DNA from: Desulfopila aestuarii DSM 18488
GTDB lineage: Bacteria; Desulfobacterota; Desulfobulbia; Desulfobulbales; Desulfocapsaceae
Length of the DNA: 64,000 nt
Assembly (NCBI GenBank): GCA_945863875.1
Contig: CAMBBS010000008.1
Coordinates: 62,001 to 126,000, forward strand
Direction of reading: 5' to 3'
Of this stretch, positions 32,660 to 35,096 are shown piece by piece. The notes under the pieces are model-generated. The model did not search any database. It saw only the letters and a list, made by a program, of their open reading frames with translations, and was not told the origin of the DNA. A program made the position numbers and the translations under genes. Every line of letters begins with the position of its first letter. The first letter of the stretch is position 1.

Positions 32660-33082
32660 ATGCAATGCCCCCACTGCAAGGCCGAAATAGGAGGTCACAG
32701 GAATCCTACCCCGACCGTGGATATCATTATTGAAATCGGCGACCGGATCGTCCTCATTGAGCGAAAGAATCCACCCTATGGCTGGGCACTGCCCGGAGGT
32801 TTTGTCGACTATGGCGAGTCCTATGAAACAGCGGCCCTGCGCGAAGCGGAAGAGGAAACCGGCCTGAGAGTCATGGGGCTCCGCCAGTTTCACACCTATT
32901 CCGCGCCGGACCGGGACCCGCGTGGCCACACCGCCTCGACCGTTTTTATCGGCACATCCGACGGTTCGCCCCGGGCCGGAGATGATGCCGCCCGGGCGGA
33001 GCTTTTCGGCCAAGAGACTCTCCCGCCCCTGGCCTTCGATCATGCCAGGATCCTGGCAGATTATTTCCAAAGCAAAAAATAA
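32660..33082 (+). CDS. NUDIX hydrolase with N-terminal CPHC motif
   Basis: A 140-residue protein with a complete Nudix box: [20 protein letters not shown] followed by ETGL, supplying the Mg-binding REAEEE residues. The N-terminus [12 protein letters not shown] has a CxxC pair, possibly half of a zinc site. It likely hydrolyses a nucleoside diphosphate derivative; substrate not predictable. It ends five bases before the terminator hairpin at 33087. Confidence 0.88.
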
Positions 33083-33127: not shown

Positions 33128-33289
33128 CTACAACACCGTCCGCAACAGCCAATACGTGAAAAGACCCATACCTATGGACCCGTAAATCATCATTCACGGC
33201 GTGCAGTTACTGCCGTACTTCTTGGCGATAAAACCAAAGGTGGCCAGGCCGATCAGACCGGCCCCGGCCAGAAGCAGTATTTCTTTCAT
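33128..33289 (-). CDS. Small membrane selenoprotein with CTPU motif
   Basis: Reading the in-frame UGA at 33194-33196 as selenocysteine gives 53 residues: MKEILLLAGAGLIGLATFGF, then IAKKYGSNCTP-U32-MMIYGSIGMG and LFTYWLLRTVL. There are two hydrophobic segments (about 3-21 and 33-52) flanking a short loop with C29-T-P-U32, a CxxU redox-type motif. The gene starts seven bases after the typA stop, on the same strand, and ends just before a strong minus-strand terminator, so it is the last gene of the typA transcript. A hairpin with an AGGU loop lies at the right distance 3' of the UGA. Without recoding only a 31-residue peptide would be made. I do not recognise the family; a redox or metal-handling role is speculation. 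Confidence 0.75.
33170..33196 (-). other. UGA selenocysteine codon and putative SECIS of small selenoprotein
   Basis: TGA at 33194-33196 (minus) is followed 16 bases later by CCAT-AGGT-ATGG, a four-base-pair stem that extends with weaker pairs, and a loop containing the G-U found in bacterial SECIS apical loops. The GU lies about 22 bases after the UGA, similar to E. coli fdhF. Confidence 0.65.
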
Positions 33290-33296
33290 AAGAATG

Positions 33297-35096
33297 CTAC
33301 CCCCTTATTTTCGTCCCCGATCTCTTGCGCAGACGGATTGAGGCCGGGGTCACCTCGACGAGTTCGTCATCATTAATATAGGCAATACATTCCTCCAGCG
33401 ACATGGTCACCGGTGGCGTCAAGACAACCGCATCATCGGTACCGGAGGCGCGCATGTTCGTCAGTTTCTTGCCTTTGGCCGGATTAACCACCAGATCGGT
33501 TGACCGGCTGTGTTCGCCGATGATCTGTCCCGGGTACAAAGGCGCCCCCGGATGGATGAACAGTTTGCCGCGCTCCTGCAAATTAAATAAGGCAAAAGCC
33601 ACCGCGGTGCAAGGTTCCTTGACCAAAAGGACCCCGCTTACTCGATTGATGATATCCCCGGCGTAGGGGCCGTATTCGGAAAAAACATAGGACATCATGC
33701 CCATTCCTTTGGTGTCGGTCATGAATTGCGAACGGTAGCCCAAAAGACCGCGGGTGGGGATATTGAACACCATCCGCACCATGCCGTTGGCACTGTTCAT
33801 TTCCTCGAGCTGACCTTTTTGCTTGCCAAGTTTTTCTATAACCGGCCCCTGGTACAATTCATCAACATCGACGGTAAGTTTTTCGTATGGTTCGAGGACC
33901 TTACCATCTTTTTCCTTAAGAATAACCTGGGGGCGAGTCACTTGAAACTCATAGCCTTCCCGTCTCATTTTTTCGATGAGGATGGAGAGGTGCAGCTCGC
34001 CGCGGCCGGAGACCTTGAAACCTACGGCATCTTCCAGTGGTTCACACTGCAGGGCAACATCGGCAAGGATTTCACGCTGCAGGCGGTCATTAATATGCCG
34101 GGAGGTGACAAACTTGCCCTCTTTACCGGCAAAAGGGGAATCGTTGGGGATGAAATTCATCGAGATGGTCGGCGGATCGATGGTCACCAGCGGCAGGGGA
34201 CGTGGATTCTCCGGATCGGTAAAGGTTACCCCGACCGTCACATCCTCCATACCGGCGACCGCTACAATTTCTCCGACCCCGGCCGATTCCACGGCAATTT
34301 TCGCATCACATTCAAAGCGGAAAATTTTTGAGATCCGCACCGGTTTGATAGTGCCGTCACGGCGGGCGACGACGATCGGCTGATTCAGGCGCATGGTGCC
34401 GTTGACCACTTTGCCGATACCAAGCCTCCCCAGATACGGTGAATAATCGATGGTACCGACCTGCATCTGCAGCGGCTCGTCACTTGAGCCGGTCGGCGCC
34501 GGGGTATGGTCGACAATCATCTGGGAAATATGCACCATGCTGCCGCCGTTAATCACCGGATCTTCCGGGTCGAGCAGGGAATAGCCGTTTTTCGCCGAGG
34601 CATAGACCACGGGAAAATCGAGCACATCATCAGGGGCATTGAGTTTGACGAAGAGATCAAAGACCTGATCGACGACCCACTCGCAACGGGCGGCCGGTTT
34701 GTCAATTTTATTGATGACGACGATGACCGGCAGCTTGTTTTCCAGGGCCTTCTTCAAGACAAAATAGGTCTGGGGCATTGGGCCTTCCTGGGCATCAACG
34801 AGCAGCAGTGCGCCATCGGCCATCCGCAGGACACGTTCCACCTGACCACCAAAATCGGCATGTCCCGGGGTATCGATAATGTTGATCCAGTAATCATTAA
34901 AATTATAGGAACCGTTTTTAGCCGTGATGGTGATGCCGCGCTCACGTTCCAGATCCATGGAGTCCATTAATCGCTCGGACACCTCCTGGTTGTCACGAAA
35001 CATTCCGGATTGTTTAAAAAGTTGATCAACCAGCGTTGTCTTGCCATGGTCAACATGAGCGATAATGGCCACGTTACGAATTTTACTCTGTTCCAT
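33297..35096 (-). CDS. typA: Translational GTPase TypA/BipA
   Basis: A 599-residue ribosome-associated GTPase. G motifs: AHVDHGKTTL (G1), the DTPGHADFGG segment (G3), VVINKID (G4) and VYASAKNGY (G5 region). EF-G-like domains III and V and the BipA-specific C-terminal domain follow (GALLYPGQIIGEHSR-like segment reads GAPLYPGQIIGEHS). It assists 50S assembly and stress or low-temperature growth. Length is close to E. coli BipA (607). A TATAAT (35168-35173 on the complement) 75 bases upstream may be its -10 element. The small selenoprotein gene follows in the same unit. Confidence 0.95.
   Translation of the reverse strand: MEQSKIRNVAIIAHVDHGKTTLVDQLFKQSGMFRDNQEVSERLMDSMDLERERGITITAKNGSYNFNDYWINIIDTPGHADFGGQVERVLRMADGALLLVDAQEGPMPQTYFVLKKALENKLPVIVVINKIDKPAARCEWVVDQVFDLFVKLNAPDDVLDFPVVYASAKNGYSLLDPEDPVINGGSMVHISQMIVDHTPAPTGSSDEPLQMQVGTIDYSPYLGRLGIGKVVNGTMRLNQPIVVARRDGTIKPVRISKIFRFECDAKIAVESAGVGEIVAVAGMEDVTVGVTFTDPENPRPLPLVTIDPPTISMNFIPNDSPFAGKEGKFVTSRHINDRLQREILADVALQCEPLEDAVGFKVSGRGELHLSILIEKMRREGYEFQVTRPQVILKEKDGKVLEPYEKLTVDVDELYQGPVIEKLGKQKGQLEEMNSANGMVRMVFNIPTRGLLGYRSQFMTDTKGMGMMSYVFSEYGPYAGDIINRVSGVLLVKEPCTAVAFALFNLQERGKLFIHPGAPLYPGQIIGEHSRSTDLVVNPAKGKKLTNMRASGTDDAVVLTPPVTMSLEECIAYINDDELVEVTPASIRLRKRSGTKIRG

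Follow-up and report, generated by a model that had tools for sequence, protein, structure and literature searches.

Bacterial selenoproteins are usually, albeit not universally, accompanied by Cys-containing homologues, and selenoprotein discovery relies on cysteine homologues together with a minimum gene length. Several selenoproteins bearing a CxxU motif are thioredoxin-like or AhpD-like soluble domains. Thioredoxin carries CxPC, with a proline between the two cysteines as in the CxPU motif described below, and DsbB/VKOR carry CxxC at the start of a membrane helix. Bacterial CxxU selenoproteins such as the SELENOW-like, GrdA and AhpD-like proteins appear in the available part of a catalogue published in 2026, whose 119 families and subfamilies of prokaryotic selenoproteins also include a MerT-like selenoprotein with C/SxxU (PMC13188914). 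The same source models the SECIS as a stem-loop after the UGA, with a G in the first two loop positions, a loop 16-37 nt from the UGA and an MFE <= -7.5 kcal/mol. From related sulfate reducers, the accessible text of PMC12013277 describes the hypothetical selenoproteins DF (NF049942), DG and DW; all new families in it are reported with Cys homologues, and its deep-Sep procedure retains a candidate only when its top hits include either a known Sec homologue or two or more Cys homologues. Finally, a selC* tRNA-Cys with a UCA anticodon, together with SelB* and CysRS*, is described for Desulfobacterales in the part of PMC7609411 available to us.

The window analysed here is a 64,000-nucleotide stretch of a Desulfobulbales genome, in which an earlier note had read, from the letters alone, a 53-residue membrane selenoprotein with a CTPU motif behind typA. 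The in-frame UGA, the motif, the coordinates, the typA neighbour, a GU-loop hairpin and a terminator were all recovered as that note had stated them (Table 1). The gene consists of 31 codons, TGA, 21 more codons and TAG, with the local translation ...NCTPUMMIYGSIGMG..., and its ATG begins 7 nt beyond the typA stop. A plus-strand reading of 33128-33289 makes no sense, and the feature was assigned to the minus strand. Beyond the gene, a 131-nt stretch with the terminator-like hairpin folds strongly (z -3.67). A small gene, named Nudix-like by eye, converges on the selenoprotein gene, and the terminator hairpin lying between the two may serve both. An Rfam search of the 64-kb window gave no match.

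Table 1. Features of the predicted selenoprotein locus and of the best tRNA-Sec match in the same genome.
Feature	Position	Strand	Basis
Predicted selenoprotein ORF, 53 codons + TAG stop	33289..33128	minus	translation with TGA=U, homologues, purifying selection
Start codon ATG	33289-33287	minus	
CxPU motif, codons 29-32	33205-33194	minus	
In-frame UGA, codon 32 (Sec), last CxPU residue	33196-33194	minus	invariant in 92/92 distinct proteins
SECIS-like hairpin GGGUCCAU-AGGU-AUGGGUCU	33181-33162, loop 33173-33170	minus	covariation in 77 sequences, synonymous-codon control
Stop codon TAG	33130-33128	minus	
typA, directly upstream	33297..35096	minus	ORF list; TIGR01394, 862.7 bits vs cut-off 757.3
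typA stop codon	33299-33297	minus	
GGGGG, possible ribosome-binding site overlapping the typA end	33300..33304	minus	inferred from reading the sequence
Intrinsic terminator-like hairpin + U-run, between two convergent genes	33122-33081	minus	fold, sequence
Small Nudix-like gene	32660-33082	plus	named by eye
94-nt tRNA, GCA anticodon	1498-1591, another contig of the window's genome	minus	best tRNA-Sec match

On comparative sequence grounds, the small protein is almost certainly a genuine selenoprotein, very probably of an undescribed family, for which a membrane redox role is the leading but tentative proposal. Like the earlier note, we could assign it to no known selenoprotein family. Scans of 34 members gave no convincing match in Pfam (best E 0.0065, DUF6249, 2 members) or NCBIfam (best E 0.015, Loki-CTERM, 5 members), and none of the 34 matched an NCBIfam selenoprotein model at E <= 1. 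Nothing recognisable as the 53-residue family is present in the available part of the 119-family catalogue, although this comparison rests on names, motifs and model scans because the table gives no lengths (PMC13188914). Searches of the mostly open literature and the catalogue tables of PMC13188914 and PMC9312934, as far as these are available, likewise returned no description of the family. It would rank as a new selenoprotein family, set apart by its tiny size, its predicted place in the membrane and, across the part of the phylum searched, the use of Sec alone.

How far the family resembles described systems can be stated case by case. It has in common with the catalogued CxxU proteins the motif itself, a SECIS behind the UGA and a presumed redox role; SELENOW-like, GrdA and AhpD-like proteins are however soluble, whereas here a 53-residue membrane hairpin is predicted, with no matching model and no Cys form found. 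DF, DG and DW are likewise unknown selenoproteins of Desulfobacterota, but they have Cys homologues (PMC12013277, available text) while none was found in the phylum for the present family, and the DF model (NF049942, 96 positions) had no match in the window's genome. The family also appears to fall outside what deep-Sep requires of its candidates. The MerT-like selenoprotein and MerF are small membrane proteins with a chalcogen pair, as here, but the MerF/MerT motif differs from CxPU, no profile matched, and the neighbours among those annotated were typA, mtnA, rubredoxin or others. As for DsbB/VKOR, the CxxC at their membrane-helix start compares with CxPU here; they have at least four helices, whereas our proteins have 51-58 residues, no Pfam match and two helices joined by a predicted cytoplasmic turn. 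Gene callers and methods based on Cys/Sec pairs would both tend to miss such a family because it has no known Cys form and is so short, in agreement with the expectation that standard annotation would overlook it.

Homologues with UGA at codon 32 had been expected, and they were found across the order and in a second class. A protein search reading through stops gave matches (E <= 0.1) in 47 of the 57 related genomes; four weak rows (E 0.009-0.09) were excluded, the stop being absent or an extra one present. A profile built from 34 members then located the gene in 211 of the 257 Desulfobulbales genomes searched (134 of 148 of good quality, 59 of 69 genera), leaving 46 genomes, including 14 of good quality, without a match. 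Exactly one TGA was present in each order-wide match, among the matches listed. Since the gene with its TGA recurs in this many genomes, the ORF is far beyond chance. Across the phylum, represented by 395 genomes drawn evenly, strong matches were confined to 15 genomes from the window's order plus a single genome from another class; in that second class the gene was found in 13 of 60 genomes, each with one TGA. When the genome collection was scanned with one protein as query, a search whose reach ends at close relatives, it gave at least seven loci titled Desulfopila, Desulforhopalus, Desulfobulbaceae, Desulfocapsaceae or Deltaproteobacteria, and the profile had no match in plasmid and phage collections. 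The earlier note had also allowed for homologues with TGC or TGT at codon 32. These did not appear: no Cys homologue occurred among the significant matches in the 395 genomes, and 13 of the 41 weak phylum rows (E 0.001-0.1) were inspected, all proving unrelated and none a Cys form. The Cys homologues that usually accompany bacterial selenoproteins were not found for this family in the phylum as sampled.

We compared 92 distinct proteins, 79 from the first locus set and 13 from the second class, ranging from 51 to 58 residues in length. Cys29, Sec32, Tyr36 and Gly42 are invariant in all 92; 88 of them have Pro31 and 89 have Gly40. From 223-224 gene pairs with identity >= 68%, pN/pS was estimated at 0.30 before the UGA, 0.34 in codons 33-52 and 0.47 in codons 44-52, which lie beyond the hairpin. 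Protein-level selection therefore persists past the UGA, albeit looser at the C-terminus, and the family shows what is looked for in a selenoprotein, namely a conserved in-frame UGA with conserved sequence on both sides.

The hairpin proposed at SECIS distance is present and covaries in the family, but the window's own copy is weak. Counted from the UGA, 42 nt can be aligned gap-free across 77 distinct sequences, in which a nine-pair helix joins columns 16-24 with 27-35, including the pair closing the GG loop. Standard pairs fill 90.6% of the helix cells in these sequences; shuffles reach 80.1% and slid controls 28-56%. The helix was chosen from the same 77 sequences used for scoring, which favours it over the slid controls. 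Both sides are changed in 82 helix cells of the 77 sequences compared with 28.2 in shuffles; at pair 18-33, for instance, we counted CG 30, AU 26, GC 3, GU 2, UA 2, UG 2 and other 12. Pairs 18-33, 21-30 and 24-27 link third codon positions, and much of the covariation is therefore silent, while in pairs 22-29 and 23-28 a first codon position meets a second one, hence the pairings Ile39/Met41, Val39/Thr41 and Ala39/Ala41. Synonymous divergence is lower within the hairpin (pS 0.32 vs 0.55-0.60).

Set against the SECIS model given above, 74 of 79 genes have the loop and spacing, 67 the energy and 64 both. With the protein held fixed, synonymous recoding reached both in a mean of only 15.5 of 79, and 124 of 2000 random 27-mers did so. 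In the window, the hairpin is in-frame and its loop lies 20 nt after the UGA (family loop pattern NGGN), so that loop and spacing agree with the model, but its energy of -5.1 kcal/mol falls short. Moreover, a 73-nt stretch that begins immediately ahead of the UGA folds no better than shuffles (z -0.48) and prefers a different hairpin. The SECIS is thus revealed by the family alignment and not by single-sequence folding. Among the 13 genes of the second class, a hairpin with a suitably placed G was found in 10, reaching <= -7.5 kcal/mol in 8, and none was found in 3.

Of the selenocysteine genes that the earlier note had proposed to look for, selA (618 bits) and selB (353.4 bits) are present in the window's genome, but its draft assembly of 93 contigs yielded no canonical selC, the tRNA gene with a UCA anticodon. 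A relative's canonical tRNA-Sec used as query, in a search without a positive control, had no match in the assembly either. The best tRNA-Sec match, at 54.8 bits (cut-off 47), has a GCA anticodon and probably is a selC*-type tRNA-Cys. We considered it as a new type of tRNA and dropped the idea, the selC* tRNA-Cys appearing to cover it in the available part of PMC7609411. A UCA tRNA-Sec was present in all eight relatives whose locus was retrieved for it, six of them of the same genus, and lay beside glyQ in five of seven; in those five it sits between glyQ and a conserved protein of about 120 residues of unknown function. The stretch around glyQ in the window's genome contains no tRNA. Order-wide, 215 of 257 genomes had tRNA-Sec matches above the cut-off, some of which could be selC*. 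The missing selC would most simply be explained by a gap in the assembly.

A conserved linkage to typA had also been predicted, and it holds for part of the family. By tblastn over the 92 distinct genes, 59 follow typA, 15 precede mtnA (TIGR00512, 394.4 bits for the one representative tested), 3 follow a rubredoxin gene (PF00301, 63.2 bits for the one of three tested) and 15 have none of these neighbours; in 11 of these last the flanks extended no further than about 1.5 kb either way, and in one the upstream flank was 0.9 kb. Because mtnA, rubredoxin and other contexts also occur, the typA link is a weaker hint to function. In three genomes, all from one genus of the second class, the distance from the end of the rubredoxin frame to the selenoprotein start is 0, 0 and 1 nt, which suggests that the two abutting genes form one operon there. 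No other neighbour has an obvious role in redox chemistry, and rubredoxin occurs beside the gene in that genus only. An uncharacterised protein of 272-430 residues is encoded directly after the selenoprotein gene in five genomes, overlapping it in one; a Pfam scan of one such protein gave no match.

AlphaFold models of eight sequences, with Sec modelled as Cys, are of modest confidence (mean pLDDT 69.5, pTM 0.33) and show helices at residues 2-28 and 30-52. Foldseek and PDB sequence searches found no relative. Over the 92 proteins, Lys+Arg average 2.43 in the turn against 0.68 and 0.72 at the ends; the turn holds more than both ends combined in 62 proteins and never fewer. By the positive-inside rule, this positively charged turn is therefore probably cytoplasmic. 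In the mechanism that we propose, SelB and Sec-tRNA would read the UGA of codon 32 as selenocysteine, and the product would fold into two membrane helices that form a hairpin around the charged turn. Cys29 would close the first helix and Sec32 open the second, while Tyr36, about one turn beyond, could steady the selenolate. The Cys29-Sec32 pair may cycle between a selenenylsulfide and a reduced form, take its recharge from the cytosol and pass the electrons to an oxidant on the membrane side, for instance a lipid peroxide, a disulfide or a quinone-linked partner; anaerobes that meet oxygen might, for example, reduce lipid peroxides or protein disulfides in this way. The earlier note had likewise pointed to the likeness of CxxU to redox motifs. 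A membrane-bound thiol/selenol oxidoreductase is the likeliest role, albeit a tentative assignment, and typA and mtnA, the commonest neighbours, are uninformative on it. The fuller proposal of a Sec-only two-helix membrane selenoenzyme, core to the order, fed by cytosolic carriers such as rubredoxin and in which Cys cannot replace Sec, is speculative and rather unlikely.

Several other explanations of the locus were weighed. UGA is an ordinary stop in many genes, and codons 1-31 alone would give a plausible membrane peptide, so the product might be a 31-residue single-helix protein followed by non-coding RNA structure or decay. This is extremely unlikely: the frame beyond the UGA contains no other stops, total length stays within 51-58 residues in 92 proteins, codons 44-52, beyond the hairpin, are under selection (pN/pS 0.47), and the covarying hairpin matches SECIS placement. 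Highly improbable as well is a recoding of the UGA as cysteine by a selC*-type tRNA-Cys acting through a SelB-like factor, as proposed for Desulfobacterales. Those systems share with the present case a tRNA-Sec-like tRNA and UGA recoding in related bacteria, and a UCA-bearing selC* with SelB* and CysRS* is known there (PMC7609411, available part); the window's genome does have a tRNA of selC* look. Yet they would place Cys and not Sec at the UGA, the GCA anticodon of that tRNA reads ordinary Cys codons, and gene-bearing relatives possess a canonical UCA tRNA-Sec. In addition, no Cys codon stands in place of the UGA in the copies read, a replacement that would be easy if Cys sufficed.

If the UGA is read as selenocysteine, as we favour, the protein could still act otherwise than as a stand-alone enzyme. 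Its small size, its glycine-rich second helix (YGSxGxG) and its near-universal presence in the order would fit a small subunit held by that helix in a larger membrane complex; this reading is unlikely but deserves some weight, no membrane-complex operon adjoining the gene in the contexts examined and the glycine motif overlapping the hairpin, which partly imposes it. A relay of metal or selenium at the membrane, in the manner of MerF/MerT, would account for a chalcogen pair placed where the two helices meet and has a counterpart in the MerT-like C/SxxU selenoprotein of the catalogue's available part (PMC13188914). It is improbable given that mercury-transport models in Pfam and NCBIfam gave no match and that no mer-type neighbours occur in the contexts annotated.

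The selenoprotein reading gives the family a significance beyond this locus. Most genomes of the order, which matters for sulfur cycling, have kept the gene, and every copy read has Sec; this would allow one to ask cleanly why certain functions depend on selenium. If the Sec-only minimal enzyme proposed above were real, part of the amino-acid covariation in it (39 with 41) would be dictated by the overlapping SECIS hairpin. The family also suggests that further tiny Sec-only proteins are still overlooked.
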